Source: Candidatus Epulonipiscium sp.
GTDB lineage: Bacteria > Bacillota > Clostridia > Lachnospirales > JAAYNZ01
Assembly: GCA_012524135.1 (NCBI GenBank)
Contig: JAAYSE010000007.1
Span: 1-33,920 of the forward strand
Reading direction: 5' to 3'
DNA: 33,920 bases
Shown here: piece by piece, positions 25,949 through 32,008 of the stretch
Layout of the letters: each line of letters begins with the position of its first letter
Position numbering within the stretch: position 1 is the stretch's first letter
The notes under the pieces: model-generated
What the model was told of the DNA's origin: nothing
Database searches by the model: none
What the model saw: the letters and a program-made list of their open reading frames with translations, nothing else
Translations under genes and position numbers: made by a program

Positions 25949-27340
25949 ATGAAAGTAATGATTATAGGGGCTGGAAAGTTTGGATATAAACTTGCAGAGT
26001 TGATGGTATTAGAAGATATTGATGTAACAGTCATTGATAAAAATATAAAAGTGCTAGAAATTGTAAATGAACATTTAGATGTGTTAACAGTTTTAGCAAA
26101 TGGATTGGATATTAAGATTCTTAAAGAATTAGATATTCAATCCTATTATTTATTAGTAGCTGCTACCGATAGTGATGAAACGAATACTTTAATTTGTTCT
26201 ATAGCAAAAAAATTAGGATGTGCAAAAACGATAGCGAGAATTAGAAATCCAGAGTATATCGAACAATTAGATTTCATGAAGACAGAAATGGGTATTGATC
26301 ATATTATGAATCCAGATTTAGCTACAGCACAAGCAATTGAAAAATATCTATTGAAGAATTATAGTTTTTATTCAGATGATTTTGCTAGTGGTAAAGTACA
26401 AATGATTGATGTAAATATTGGTCAGACAAAAGAATTTGTAGGGAAAAAATTAAAAGAGCTAGAAAATTTTAATGGTTTATTGGTGACGGCGATATCAAGA
26501 GATGGAGATATTATTATTCCTGATGGATCCACCGAGTTATTGTCCAATGATACCATTTATGTAATAGGAAAAAGTGAAGGGATTCAAAGATTAAACAATC
26601 ATTTTAGACAAGATATAACAAAAAGAGATATTGAAAGAGTAATGATTTTAGGAGGAAGTAATATTGGGTTTTATTTAGCTCAAAAGTTGGCAAAAGCCAA
26701 TATCAACGTTACAATAATAGAAAGAGATAAAGAAAAATGTAAGGAGCTAACTGAAAAACTAGATAATGCATTAATTATTCATGGAGATGGTACAGATATG
26801 AACCTTCTGGAAGAAGAAAGGATTTCCACCATGGATGCTTTTGTAGCTGTTACAGGATATGATGAAGGAAATTTATTAATGGGTCTAATGGCAAAACAAT
26901 CAGGTATTCCAAAAACAATATCTAAAATTAGTAGAGAGAATTATAGTAAAATTATAGATCGTTTAGGAATAGATGTTGCTTTGAATCCAATTTATATTAC
27001 AGCAAGTAATATTCTAAAATATATTCGAGGTGGCAAAATAGTATCGGTCTCTTTATTAATCGGTGGACAAGGAGAAGTGACAGAGATTATTTTAGGTAAA
27101 GATCTCCCTATTATAGGTAAAACTTTAGAAGAACTAAAGTTACCCAAGGGAATTATCATTGGGGCCATTGTTCGAGGAGGACAAGTGATTATACCAAATG
27201 GAAAATCAATACTATATGCCCATGATCGAATAGTGGTATTTTGTTTAACGGAAGATTTACCAAGGTTAAAAACGTTTTTCAAACCACATAAGGGAGGAGT
27301 ATTGAATGAATTATGGAATCGTGCTACAGGTATTAGGTAG
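25949..27340 (+). CDS. trkA: Trk potassium uptake regulatory subunit TrkA
   Basis: Cytoplasmic NAD(H)/nucleotide-binding partner that gates the TrkH K+ channel. 463 residues in two tandem RCK units, each with a Rossmann RCK-N and an RCK-C domain: first GAGKFGYKLAELM with DVTVIDKN, second (near residue 230) ILGGSNIGFYLAQKL with NVTIIERDKEK. This full-length duplicated form is the classic TrkA; KtrA has one unit. GAGGTG precedes the ATG. Its last 35 bases overlap the start of trkH, so the genes are translationally coupled. Driven by the promoter at 25899-25927. Confidence 0.96.
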   Translation: MKVMIIGAGKFGYKLAELMVLEDIDVTVIDKNIKVLEIVNEHLDVLTVLANGLDIKILKELDIQSYYLLVAATDSDETNTLICSIAKKLGCAKTIARIRNPEYIEQLDFMKTEMGIDHIMNPDLATAQAIEKYLLKNYSFYSDDFASGKVQMIDVNIGQTKEFVGKKLKELENFNGLLVTAISRDGDIIIPDGSTELLSNDTIYVIGKSEGIQRLNNHFRQDITKRDIERVMILGGSNIGFYLAQKLAKANINVTIIERDKEKCKELTEKLDNALIIHGDGTDMNLLEEERISTMDAFVAVTGYDEGNLLMGLMAKQSGIPKTISKISRENYSKIIDRLGIDVALNPIYITASNILKYIRGGKIVSVSLLIGGQGEVTEIILGKDLPIIGKTLEELKLPKGIIIGAIVRGGQVIIPNGKSILYAHDRIVVFCLTEDLPRLKTFFKPHKGGVLNELWNRATGIR

Positions 27341-28754
27341 TTTATTTATTATAGAATCTTTGTTTATGATTCCTTCCTTACTAATATCGATATATCATAA
27401 ACAAGTCGATACATTTGCATTTTTAATTACCATTATGATAACCATTATTTTCGGCTTTATTTTTAGACGAGTAAAAACTCAAAATAAATCGATTAATGTA
27501 AAGGAAGGATTGGCTATTGTATCTTTTGGTTGGATTGGAATATCAATATTAGGAGCATTACCTTTATGGATTTCTCATAGTACTCCTACTTATGTTGATG
27601 CATTATTTGAAATTGTATCCGGTTTTACAACAACAGGTGCAACAGTAATTACTAATGTTGAAATATTACCTTTAGGTATTTTATTTTGGCGTTCTCTTAC
27701 CCATTGGCTTGGGGGAATGGGAGTTTTAGTTTTTACATTATCTTTATTACCTGCATTGGGAATTGGTGGATTTCAAATTTTTAAGGCAGAAAGTCCAGGA
27801 CCGATTGCAGGGAAAATTGCTCCTAAAATTAAAGATACCGCTCAAATTCTATATACTACGTATATTACAATAACTATTTTACAAGTTGTTTTGTTAAAAT
27901 TAGGTGGAATGAATTTTTTTGATTCATTCGTTTATACTTTTGGGACAGTGGGAACAGGAGGATTTGCTACAAAAAATGCTAGTGTAGGAGCTTATAATAA
28001 TACCTATATTCATATTATTATCGGTATTTTTATGATTCTCTCTGGTGTGAATTTTTCTATGTATTATTCTATTTTTCAAGGAAAAAGAAAAGAAATTATA
28101 AAAGATGAAGAGTTAAAACTTTATTTTGGTATTATTTTTGTTGCAGTCATAGCGATTGGAATTAATTTATATGGGACAGTATATTCGAATTTAGGATTCG
28201 CATTTCGAGATTCTTTTTTTCAAGTAGGATCTATTATAACAACAACGGGTTATTCAACAGCGAATTTTGATTTATGGCCTACATTTAGTAAAGGAATATT
28301 GGTATTATTGATGTTTATCGGAGGAAGTGCAGGATCGACGGCGGGGGGCATGAAGGTTATTCGGATCTTAGTTACTTTTAAATTAATAAAAAGAGAAATT
28401 TTAAAGATTTTTCATCCTAGAGCAGTTATTCCAATTAAAGTAAATGATAAAGTATTGCCCAATGAAACGATAGCAGGTATTAATAGCTTTATGGGACTTT
28501 ATATTCTACTATTTGTATGCTCAACGATTTTAGTATCATTAGAACAAATTGATTTAGTAAGTGCAGCAACATCAGTAGCAGCAACGTTAGGAAATATTGG
28601 GCCAGGATTAGGTTTTGTTGGACCTACAAGTACTTTTAATGGATATCATTCGATTACAAAGTTATTTTTTTCATTATTAATGCTTTTAGGTAGATTGGAG
28701 TTATTTACTATTATTGCATTATTAGCACCTAAAAAATGGAGAAAAGAGATATAA
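27306..28754 (+). CDS. trkH: Trk potassium uptake channel subunit TrkH
   Basis: Integral membrane K+-translocating subunit, 482 residues with four M1-P-M2 repeats. The four pore-loop glycine regions are visible: SGFTTTGATVITNVE, GTVGTGGFATKNASVG, TTTGYSTANFDLWP and AATLGNIGPGLGFVGP. The flexible gate region of the third repeat (GGSAGSTAGGMKVIR) is conserved. The start lies within trkA; GGGAGGAG stands 6 bases before the ATG. With TrkA it forms a complete K+ uptake system. Hydrophobic stretches cover most of the protein, giving the 10-12 helices usual for TrkH. Confidence 0.96.
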   Translation: MNYGIVLQVLGSLFIIESLFMIPSLLISIYHKQVDTFAFLITIMITIIFGFIFRRVKTQNKSINVKEGLAIVSFGWIGISILGALPLWISHSTPTYVDALFEIVSGFTTTGATVITNVEILPLGILFWRSLTHWLGGMGVLVFTLSLLPALGIGGFQIFKAESPGPIAGKIAPKIKDTAQILYTTYITITILQVVLLKLGGMNFFDSFVYTFGTVGTGGFATKNASVGAYNNTYIHIIIGIFMILSGVNFSMYYSIFQGKRKEIIKDEELKLYFGIIFVAVIAIGINLYGTVYSNLGFAFRDSFFQVGSIITTTGYSTANFDLWPTFSKGILVLLMFIGGSAGSTAGGMKVIRILVTFKLIKREILKIFHPRAVIPIKVNDKVLPNETIAGINSFMGLYILLFVCSTILVSLEQIDLVSAATSVAATLGNIGPGLGFVGPTSTFNGYHSITKLFFSLLMLLGRLELFTIIALLAPKKWRKEI

Positions 28755-28808: not shown

Positions 28809-29768
28809 TTAAAAACCATTAAAAGTTAAAAAAACATAAATTAAATAAGAACAGAGAAGGAATAGACCATTTTTACGTTGGAGTTTTTCTTCATTTATTC
28901 GGATAAAAAATAGTACTGCTGCGATAATAAAAATAGCAAAAGGCAGATGAAATAATATCCAACTTTTTCCTATTTGTATGGGGAGGATGGTTGCCGTTAG
29001 AGCAATTACTAGAATAATATTTAAAATATTAGCTCCTAGTATATTTCCAATGGATAGATCTTGTGCCTCTTTTTTCATGGATACAATGGCGGTCACTAAT
29101 TCAGGTAAAGAGGTTCCAACAGAAGTTAAAAGAAGACCTATTACAAGATCGGGAACGCCTAAAATACGGGCAATTTCTTCACCATATACAACTAATAAAT
29201 TAGCTCCGCCAATGGTTAATAATACTCCTACGATAAAAGCAACGATATTTTTGATAATAGAAAATTTATCTTTATGTACTGGCGTAGGCATGGTTAAGTC
29301 TGGTTCTTTTTTACTATTGCGAATATTATTATATAAGTAAAAGACAAGAATACCTAATAACAGGAATCCAATTTTTTGTGATATTTGTTGAAACAATAAT
29401 CCAACAAAGAATAGAAAAAACAATAATAGAATCAAAAAATGTCCTGTTTGTTGAAATTTTTTTCGTTCTCGAAGGCGAGGGGTAGAAAAAATAATAACAA
29501 TAGCTAAAATAAAGCTTGTATTAAAGATGATAGAACCTAATGCATTTCCAAAAGCCATATCCGTATTTCCACGAAGAGCAGAACTAGTAGAAACCATAGC
29601 TTCGGGTAATGTTGTACATAGACTTACAAGAGTAGCACCAATAATAATATCAGGGATTTTTAAAACTTTTGCAATCCATACAGCAGAATCAACAAACCAA
29701 TCACTTCCTTTGATAATCATGATTAGCCCAGCAATAAATAATAGAAAGGGCATCATTTGTTCTAACAT
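28809..29768 (-). CDS. CaxA/YrbG-family Ca2+/cation antiporter, probably manganese-responsive
   Basis: 319 residues with about ten transmembrane helices in two inverted halves, as in Na+/Ca2+ exchangers. The alpha-1 repeat is SLCTTLPEAMVST with GNALGSIIFNTS; alpha-2 is SVGTSLPELVTAI with GNILGANILNII. The acidic residue of each (PE) and the Asn following FN or LN are kept. In alpha-1 the usual GTS is CTT and GSN is GSI. A hydrophilic middle loop (about 150-165) separates the halves. AGGAGG precedes the ATG. It is controlled by the yybP-ykoY-type riboswitch and terminator upstream, which imply induction by Mn2+, so a manganese-export role is plausible, although family members are best known for Ca2+. 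Confidence 0.93.
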   Translation of the reverse strand: MLEQMMPFLLFIAGLIMIIKGSDWFVDSAVWIAKVLKIPDIIIGATLVSLCTTLPEAMVSTSSALRGNTDMAFGNALGSIIFNTSFILAIVIIFSTPRLRERKKFQQTGHFLILLLFFLFFVGLLFQQISQKIGFLLLGILVFYLYNNIRNSKKEPDLTMPTPVHKDKFSIIKNIVAFIVGVLLTIGGANLLVVYGEEIARILGVPDLVIGLLLTSVGTSLPELVTAIVSMKKEAQDLSIGNILGANILNIILVIALTATILPIQIGKSWILFHLPFAIFIIAAVLFFIRINEEKLQRKNGLFLLCSYLIYVFLTFNGF

Positions 29769-29841
29769 AAATATCCTCCTTTTGTAATAACGTGCTTAAT
29801 ATCATATTTTCCTAGCGTAATGAGAAAAGCTTACATAAAAA

Positions 29842-29881
29842 AAGACTTTTACTGGTAGAATAAGTTACCAGTAAAAGTCTT
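29842..29881 (-). terminator. Riboswitch expression-platform terminator
   Basis: A perfect 16-bp stem (29842-29857 with 29866-29881, 8-base loop) is followed on the minus strand by TTTTTTT. Its first-transcribed arm contains ACTTTT (29873-29878), which also forms the closing helix of the aptamer, so the two structures exclude each other. It acts before the antiporter gene, about 70 bases from its start codon. Confidence 0.92.
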
Positions 29882-29982
29882 GCTTTCATATTCGATCATG
29901 AGTAATGAACCGGGTATATTTATATATACCGTATTGACGATTCATTACACAGCTATGCTGTAAGCTACTCCCTTGTACTTTT
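29873..29982 (-). promoter_or_regulatory. yybP-ykoY-type manganese riboswitch aptamer
   Basis: Read on the minus strand, the leader holds the family's conserved pieces in order: AAGGGAGTAGC, a small ACAGC/GCTGT hairpin, a GTAATGAA/TTCATTAC helix enclosing TCGTCAATACGG and ACCCGG, then ATGAAAGCAAGAC. The closing helix is AAAAGT (29977-29982) with ACTTTT (29873-29878). The yybP-ykoY family binds Mn2+ and typically controls metal exporters (MntP, TerC, P-type ATPases). Because the closing helix shares a strand with the terminator, ligand binding should turn the antiporter gene on. Confidence 0.9.
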
Positions 29983-29988
29983 AAACTT

Positions 29989-30016
29989 ATTATACACGAA
30001 TATATTTAAAAATCAA
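29989..30016 (-). promoter_or_regulatory. Promoter driving the riboswitch-antiporter transcript
   Basis: On the minus strand, TTGATT (30011-30016) and TATAAT (29989-29994) are 16 bases apart. The expected start, about 29982, is exactly where the aptamer begins. Confidence 0.75.
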
Positions 30017-30331: not shown

Positions 30332-31540
30332 ATGACAAAACCTTTTTCTTTATTGATTAAACCGGCATCAGCCGATTGTAATTTACGATGTTCTTATTGC
30401 TTTTATTTAGATCATTCAGCATTATATCCAGAAGAAAAAATACATCGAATGTCCGATGAAATTTTAGAAGAAATGATTTCACGTTATATGGCTACCGATC
30501 AACCACAATATATTTTTGGCTGGCAAGGTGGAGAACCCACTCTTATGGGAGTCGAGTTTTTTAAAAAAGTAGTTCATTATCAACAAAAGTATGCAAAACC
30601 AGGAGCTATTATTTCCAATGGCTTGCAGACAAATGGAACATTAATAACAGAAGAACTGGCAGAATTTTTACATAAATATAATTTTTTGGTTGGTATTAGT
30701 TTAGATGGACCTGAACATATTCATAATAAATATCGATTGAATCAAGGAATGAAAGGAACTCATGCTAAGGTTTGGGAAGGAATTCGTCTATTACAAAAGT
30801 ACAAAGTAGAATTTAATATATTAACATTAGTCAGCTCGTCGAATGTTCATCATGCCAAAGAAGTATATCATTATTTAAAAGATCATGGTTTTTATTATCA
30901 ACAATATATTCCTTGTGTGGAGATGGATGAACAAGGAAATCCCCTTCCCTTTACTATCACAGGAGAAGAATGGGGAAAATTTATGTGTGAAATTTTTGAT
31001 GAATGGATTCAGTCAGATCCTTATCGTATCTCGATACGCCTTTTTGATTCTATTTTATCTTTAATGTTTTATGGTCGGATGAGCGTATGTCATATGGCGG
31101 GTAATTGTCGTCAATATTTTGTTGTAGAATACAATGGAGATGTTTATCCTTGTGACTTTTTTGTAGAAAAAGAAAGGCGATTAGGAAATATAACTCGTAA
31201 TTCATGGGAAGAAATGCAGGATCACCCTTTATATCATTCTTTTGGGCATTTAAAACATCAATGGAATGACGCTTGCATACATTGTCCATATTTATTTTAT
31301 TGTTCTGGAGATTGTCTAAAACATCGTATTTATAATGGACAACCTTCAGAAACTATGAGTTGGTTATGTGAAGGATGGAAGAAGTTTTATAGTCATACCA
31401 TTCCAGGATTTTATAAGTTGGCAAAAGCTATTCAATTACAGCAATCGATCAAAGGACCATTATTTGTAGATCAAAAACAAGAACGAAACCAACCTTGTTT
31501 TTGTGGTAGTGGAAAAAAATATAAACAATGTCATGGATAG
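30332..31540 (+). CDS. Anaerobic sulfatase-maturating enzyme-like radical SAM/SPASM protein with SEC-C tail
   Basis: 402 residues. The radical SAM cluster motif is CNLRCSYC (C16, C20, C23) followed by FYLDHSALYPEEKIHRMSD, typical of anSME-type enzymes, which oxidise an active-site Cys/Ser of sulfatases to formylglycine without oxygen. SAM-contact motifs GWQGGEPTLMG and GISLDGPE are present. The C-terminal SPASM region has Cys residues for two more iron-sulfur clusters (YPCDFF, CIHCPYLFYCSGDCLKH, and a later CEGW). The end, CFCGSGKKYKQCHG, is a SEC-C zinc-binding motif. No sulfatase gene is in the window, so the substrate is inferred from family only; other peptide-modifying radical SAM enzymes are similar. 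GAGGTG precedes the ATG. Confidence 0.9.
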   Translation: MTKPFSLLIKPASADCNLRCSYCFYLDHSALYPEEKIHRMSDEILEEMISRYMATDQPQYIFGWQGGEPTLMGVEFFKKVVHYQQKYAKPGAIISNGLQTNGTLITEELAEFLHKYNFLVGISLDGPEHIHNKYRLNQGMKGTHAKVWEGIRLLQKYKVEFNILTLVSSSNVHHAKEVYHYLKDHGFYYQQYIPCVEMDEQGNPLPFTITGEEWGKFMCEIFDEWIQSDPYRISIRLFDSILSLMFYGRMSVCHMAGNCRQYFVVEYNGDVYPCDFFVEKERRLGNITRNSWEEMQDHPLYHSFGHLKHQWNDACIHCPYLFYCSGDCLKHRIYNGQPSETMSWLCEGWKKFYSHTIPGFYKLAKAIQLQQSIKGPLFVDQKQERNQPCFCGSGKKYKQCHG

Positions 31541-31642: not shown

Positions 31643-32008
31643 ATGGCTAAAAGTAATAAAATAGAAAAATGTGATTATACTCTTATTCATGAAGATCGAG
31701 TGAGACAAGTTCGTGATAATATGCCTCCCAAACAAGAATTACAGAAACTATCTCAATTATTTAAGGTATTTGGAGATTATACTCGTATTCGAATTATTCA
31801 TGCTTTATTTGAATGTGAGATGTGTGTATGTGATTTAGCTTATTTATTAGGGGTAACTCAGTCTGCTGTTTCACATCAGTTACGAGTTTTAAAACAAAGT
31901 AATATTGTAAAATATAGACGAGAAGGTAAAGTGGTTTATTATTCTTTAGATGATGAGCATGTACAACAAATTTTCTCTGTCGGATTGTCTCATATTAGAC
32001 ATGGATAA
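31643..32008 (+). CDS. ArsR/SmtB-family metal-sensing repressor
   Basis: 121-residue winged-helix dimeric repressor. The DNA-reading helix is in LLGVTQSAVSHQLRVLKQ, and the wing is YRREGKVVYYSL. Two possible metal sites are visible. The alpha-5 site D104-x-H106 with H117-x2-H120 has the SmtB/CzrA spacing for zinc or cobalt. The alpha-3 motif C61-V-C63 (preceded by C58), with C10 in the N-terminal arm, resembles the CadC cadmium/lead/zinc site. Metal binding would release DNA. GAGGAGAAG precedes the ATG. A terminator ends 19 bases upstream, leaving no room for a conventional promoter between. topB follows after 36 bases; no metal transporter is adjacent. Confidence 0.94.
   Translation: MAKSNKIEKCDYTLIHEDRVRQVRDNMPPKQELQKLSQLFKVFGDYTRIRIIHALFECEMCVCDLAYLLGVTQSAVSHQLRVLKQSNIVKYRREGKVVYYSLDDEHVQQIFSVGLSHIRHG

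Follow-up and report, generated by a model that had tools for sequence, protein, structure and literature searches.

We find that the 33,920-nucleotide stretch of Candidatus Epulonipiscium DNA analyzed here (henceforth the window) encodes on its minus strand what, taken as a whole, is likely to be a yybP-ykoY Mn2+ riboswitch that attenuates transcription of a Mn2+-exporting secondary antiporter of the CaCA/YRBG type. The window is part of a 1.95-Mb draft genome (93% complete) from the order Lachnospirales, whose closest relative is another Candidatus Epulonipiscium MAG with an antiporter of 82% identity. A promoter-like site, the aptamer, a terminator, a Shine-Dalgarno sequence and the ATG of a Na_Ca_ex gene follow one another on the minus strand, and the promoter, aptamer and strand-sharing terminator that the initial annotation had read at 29842-30016 are found there base for base. 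The antiporter gene (28809..29768, minus strand) has as its convergent neighbor a trkA-trkH pair (25949-28754, plus strand), while a radical-SAM sulfatase-maturase-like gene (30332-31540, plus strand) lies divergently on the other side of the leader. Farther along, an ArsR/SmtB-family repressor gene (31643-32008, plus strand) encodes an ELCVCDL-like motif (ECEMCVCDL) together with C-terminal D-x-H...H ligands; it adjoins a gene for a DNA topoisomerase (32045 to the end of the window), and no metal transporter gene adjoins it within the window.

The RNA almost certainly belongs to the yybP-ykoY class, as the initial annotation had proposed. The Rfam 15 manganese riboswitch model RF00080 (177 positions; cut-off 45 bits, a curators' threshold that we did not take as defining the class) gave no match on the window, either at gathering or at E<=10, and none on the whole 1.95-Mb genome. 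The same model scores the validated E. coli mntP leader at 41.6 bits, under its own cut-off, and misses the validated E. coli alx leader at E<=1, so its silence on the window is uninformative, the fault lying with RF00080 itself. It likewise matched 2 of 12 CaCA-linked leaders, both below cut-off (30-32 bits), missed the other 10, and gave nothing above cut-off across 196 genomes of the order. We therefore relied on a covariance model of our own, R1, built from 12 leaders (alignment A2), from which the window and its orthologues of 53-82% identity were excluded. On the window R1 reports a single site up to E=10, at 29976-29871 on the minus strand (55.0 bits, E=8.5e-13), which is also its one match at E<=0.001 in the genome; R1 E-values are rough owing to a shortened calibration, though the margin is large. 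R1 also recognizes the E. coli mntP (34.9 bits, E=7e-7) and alx (25.3 bits, E=3e-4) leaders and recovers all of the RF00080 loci that were fetched. Thus, the covariance-model search suggested at the outset failed in its literal form, with RF00080, and succeeded with a model that also finds validated members of the class.

The helices behind R1 are supported by covariation. In alignment A2, 96% of the cells pair and 19 of the 22 pairs vary at both positions (shuffles as high, 0/500), while pairing drops to 26-48% when the structures are slid. Ten orthologous leaders, in an alignment that was itself fitted to R1, contribute 11 pairs with both-sided changes (again 0/500 shuffles as high). The best Rfam match to the window is SSRC10 (RF02617, "Streptococcus sRNA 10"), covering 29837-29977 on the minus strand; at 23.5 bits against a cut-off of 56 we rejected it as the identity of the RNA. 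Its consensus (GGGAGuagC...CGUCaaUACGg...CCGgua...AGCgaGaC, followed by a terminator) itself reads like a yybP-ykoY leader, and this family, listed as an sRNA, probably represents a riboswitch.

Read along the minus strand, the leader begins with a promoter-like TTGATT-16 nt-TATAAT (29989..30016, 10/12 matches), from which a transcript would start near 29982. Such promoter-like matches are no commoner in the region than chance (12 seen, 14.6 expected); TATAAT stands about 14-16 nt ahead of the GGG of the aptamer in most orthologues as well. The predicted aptamer (29871..29978) folds better than shuffled sequences (z -3.6) and opens with the 5' strand of the P1.1 switch helix, GUACAAG (29972..29978), which pairs with 29871-29877 save for one C.U mismatch. 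L1 (GGAGUA) and the 5' strand of P1.2 (GC) follow at 29964..29971, GGGAGUA being found in 12/12 training leaders. Folding then places the P2 hairpin (ACAGC/GCUGU) at 29945..29963 and, together with R1, P3 and P3.1 at 29902..29948; P3 encloses the predicted metal-site loop L3, which reads CGUCAAUACGG (29929-29939), and shows both-sided changes in seven of its nine pairs in alignment A2 and in the orthologues too. The P4 hairpin (29886..29901) is assigned by folding, and alignment to R1 puts the 3' GC of P1.2, the AAGA of L1 and the 3' strand of P1.1, CUUUUAC, at 29871..29883. The P1.1/P1.2, P2, P3 (with P3.1) and P4 architecture is therefore complete and, except for P4, backed by covariation. 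Both hallmark motifs of the class are also in place, that of L1 (GGGAGUAG / GCRAGAC) at 29964-29972 and 29877-29883 and that of L3 (CGUCA..ACGG) at 29929-29939, and both are invariant or nearly so across alignment A2.

The aptamer runs directly into a predicted intrinsic terminator (29837..29881, minus strand), consisting of a hairpin from 29881 to 29842 of -21.4 kcal/mol and a U run; terminator-like sites number 4 against 1.0 expected. The 3' strand of P1.1 (CUUUUAC, 29877-29871) sits entirely within the 5' arm of this hairpin, and the Shine-Dalgarno sequence AAAGGAGG (29782-29775) and the ATG (from 29768) lie beyond it at 29766..29782. By sequence and by energy, P1.1 and the terminator exclude each other: over the full leader the terminator form (-60.9 kcal/mol) is favored by 15 kcal/mol over a fold with P1 forced (-45.7 kcal/mol), while a leader ending ahead of the terminator is nearly indifferent (best fold -29.5, P1 formed -27.5 kcal/mol). 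An attenuator whose balance can be shifted by ligand binding should show just such a layout of calculated energies. A simple folding test found the overlap of terminator and P1.1 in 33 of 36 leaders, the sister species' locus being counted twice among the 36.

The same arrangement operates in the yybP riboswitch of Lactococcus lactis yoaB, for which the P1.1/terminator switch has been established as a transcriptional ON switch that shares the 3' strand of P1.1 with the terminator (PMC11087558), although its target is a P-type ATPase. By sequence and precedent, the leader is very probably an ON switch that answers to Mn2+ by antitermination, and the transcriptional ON switch of the initial annotation is thus supported. 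Without ligand, the strong terminator hairpin would capture the 3' strand of P1.1 and transcription would halt about 70 nt ahead of the antiporter gene. Cytosolic Mn2+ would bind between L1 (GGAGUA/AAGA) and L3 (CGUCAAUACGG) and hold P1.1 closed, so that the terminator could not form and the antiporter would be produced, which would then export Mn2+, probably against Na+ or H+.

The predicted product is a 319-residue protein of the CaCA superfamily, in agreement with the Ca2+/Na+-exchanger type first assigned to it. It matches Pfam PF01699 (Na_Ca_ex) in two stretches (E=1.2e-59) and TIGR00367 ("calcium/sodium antiporter") with 208.5 bits, above the cut-off of 179.65, and is homologous over its full length to NCX_Mj (PDB 3v5u; E ~2e-29), a Na+/Ca2+ exchanger with which it shares both alpha repeats. 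We know of no riboswitch associated with NCX_Mj. The antiporter retains T50, E54, T209, S210 and E213 of NCX_Mj, which include the ion-path glutamates and threonines of the alpha repeats, but carries G49C, S51T, S236A and D240N, and has Ile at position 78, which is Cys in NCX_Mj, a solved Ca2+ exchanger. The initial annotation had taken the altered alpha-1 motifs (CTT and GSI; C49, T51, I78) as suggestive of Mn export. The substitutions are real, but the argument built on them fails: T51/I78/A236 is the mark of one of two deep CaCA subfamilies, in which 40 of the 57 members sampled lack a leader immediately upstream, and the ordinary GTS...GSN occurs in 18 of 35 leader-linked CaCA proteins. 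Over 110 sampled loci, residue 51 is Thr in 17 and Ser in 18 of the leader-linked proteins, against 40 Thr, 34 Ser and one Gly in the leader-free ones, and none of 11 independent pairs on the protein tree that differ in the leader differs at this residue. We therefore rejected the alpha-1 motif as a signature of Mn: it is a trait of a deep subfamily that does not follow the presence of the riboswitch, so that regulation, not residues, argues for manganese.

Cys49 is confined to the 12 members of the clade of orthologues to which the window's antiporter belongs, 10 of which have the leader. It represents one evolutionary event at most and is therefore no independent evidence. A tentative and rather doubtful proposal is that this Cys49-Thr-Thr clade, whose genes come from Epulonipiscium-like bacteria and their Lachnospirales relatives and mostly follow a yybP-ykoY leader, forms a subfamily devoted to Mn2+ export, its ion site (G49C, S51T, S236A and D240N relative to NCX_Mj) being tuned to Mn2+ in preference to Ca2+.

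The case for manganese comes from the regulation. Orthologues at 53-82% identity have the same leader, and in the sister species and the orthologues at 53-55% identity it stands at the same place, with covariation. Two orthologues (L012 and L013) lack it; just upstream of L012, a member of the CTT clade without an aptamer, the hairpin AAGACTTTTACTACAGACTAGTAAAAGTCTT is retained, apparently left over from a riboswitch that has been lost. For 110 distinct CaCA loci of the order we searched as much as 450 nt of preceding sequence and found a leader directly upstream of 35, in 10 families and both deep CaCA subfamilies (30 R1 matches at E<0.001 and five weaker ones, at E 0.002-0.05, with motifs readable by eye). 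About 0.01 would be expected by chance, judging from the density of the R1 matches listed. A leader is missing immediately upstream of two thirds of the CaCA genes sampled, and a tie to Mn therefore does not hold for the entire CaCA family. Well-supported branches of the protein tree show at least 11 switches between having and lacking the leader (17 on the best tree), and the link between leader and CaCA gene has therefore been repeatedly gained, kept or lost, and not inherited once.

The company kept by the leaders points in the same direction. In two loci (L016 and L021) an R1 leader is followed by an mntP gene and then by the CaCA gene, apparently placing two exporter families under one Mn riboswitch, and mntP lies directly upstream of the CaCA gene in L031 as well. 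Among the best 30 R1 loci, 20 lead into CaCA genes and eight into P-type cation ATPases, a CaCA share biased by the training set of R1, in which CaCA leaders predominate. RF00080, which is free of that training bias, independently puts leaders ahead of CaCA genes in genomes G003, G034, G047, G097 and G138. Besides the P-type ATPases, further targets include GDT1; both are known Mn exporter families. Strong R1 matches also precede flotillin-like and ABC-transporter-like genes (L154 and L164, assigned by eye from their translations), which are unusual targets.

Within the antiporter's own genome R1 finds no second site. In the sister species a GDT1-family gene (L040) also follows such a leader, and the genome of the window keeps a GDT1-family gene of 66% identity (L172). 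A second yybP-ykoY switch ahead of L172 was considered and rejected, since only a terminator-like remnant, the hairpin GAGACTTTTAA...TTAAAGGTCTC, and no aptamer is found there. If the 93%-complete draft is representative, the antiporter is the genome's one gene under this riboswitch class.

A pairing of this riboswitch class with a CaCA antiporter is already known from Bordetella, and the window is a further example. BP3410 of B. pertussis, by sequence a calcium:cation antiporter, has a yybP-ykoY riboswitch through which it is transcribed on exposure to Mn but not to Ca, and the functional protein lowers cell Mn (Capek et al. 2021, PMC8546581). In a review it appears as the YRBG-type Mn exporter (PMC9936198). 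By its description, the locus shared by B. pertussis and B. parapertussis (BP3410/BPP3560) resembles ours in having a yybP-ykoY leader on a CaCA/YRBG-type gene, with Mn2+ letting transcription pass the riboswitch and the product exporting Mn (PMC8546581), both of which are predictions for the window. It differs in coming from a Proteobacterium and in a leader that Rfam finds (at an E of 8.5e-15 in that study; PMC8546581), whereas the window has a CTT-subfamily protein from a Clostridia lineage and an RNA that RF00080 of Rfam 15 misses. A riboswitch-YrbG pairing has also been predicted for Vibrio vulnificus yrbG, which like the window joins the two elements but is a RegPrecise prediction from the Gammaproteobacteria (PMC13274385). 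The E. coli mntP and alx leaders, both matched by R1, control MntP and a TerC protein instead, and the L3 of the window is of the alx type.

Since the leader is conserved in the orthologues and on 35 of the 110 exchanger loci, Mn-triggered antitermination of a Mn exporter is the best reading. Its chief rival accepts the leader as a genuine yybP-ykoY riboswitch but makes the protein mainly a Ca2+ exporter, one that would move little or no Mn2+, under an RNA that would sense Ca2+ or use Mn2+ as a proxy. The score above the TIGR00367 cut-off and the retained NCX_Mj residues fit such a protein, and there is a report of a streptococcal yybP-ykoY member binding Ca2+ and controlling a Mn2+/Ca2+ ATPase (as described in PMC9495176). 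However, BP3410, from the same superfamily and under the same riboswitch class, exports Mn, and Ca fails to induce it (PMC8546581); relatives of the antiporter are encoded behind mntP under the same leader, and the other leader targets belong to Mn exporter families. We consider a mainly Ca2+-exporting protein improbable, and on sequence and analogy the main job of the antiporter is quite likely Mn2+ export. The Mn export predicted by the initial annotation thus gains probability from the leader linkage in 10 families, the leader-mntP-CaCA order and the published BP3410 case.

Two further readings concern the RNA itself. Breaker and colleagues expect variants of altered specificity among yybP RNAs (PMC7266159), and the aptamer could be one that senses a different divalent metal (Cd2+, Co2+ or Ni2+, for example) exported by the antiporter; yet L1 and L3 are ordinary, the L3 of the window (CGUCAAUACGG) standing beside CGUCAUUACGA in alx of E. 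coli, a validated leader, and this reading is very improbable. Still harder to credit is a plain attenuator, a riboswitch in decay or an sRNA that senses no ligand, as the silence of RF00080 and the sub-cut-off match to a listed sRNA might suggest, given that the invariant loops are kept, the helices covary across families, R1 finds the aptamer at E=8.5e-13 and the SSRC10 consensus is itself yybP-ykoY-like.

The riboswitch-CaCA pairing known experimentally from Bordetella is now extended to a whole order of Clostridia, most of whose leaders the current Rfam model misses. Because the pairing spans 10 families, both deep subfamilies and at least 11 supported changes in the presence of the leader, many of the "calcium/sodium antiporters" of this order would be better annotated as probable Mn2+ exporters. 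Their alpha-repeat residues do not separate Mn from Ca, and the leader-linked and leader-free CaCA members provide a ready set for asking what sets the choice between Mn2+ and Ca2+.
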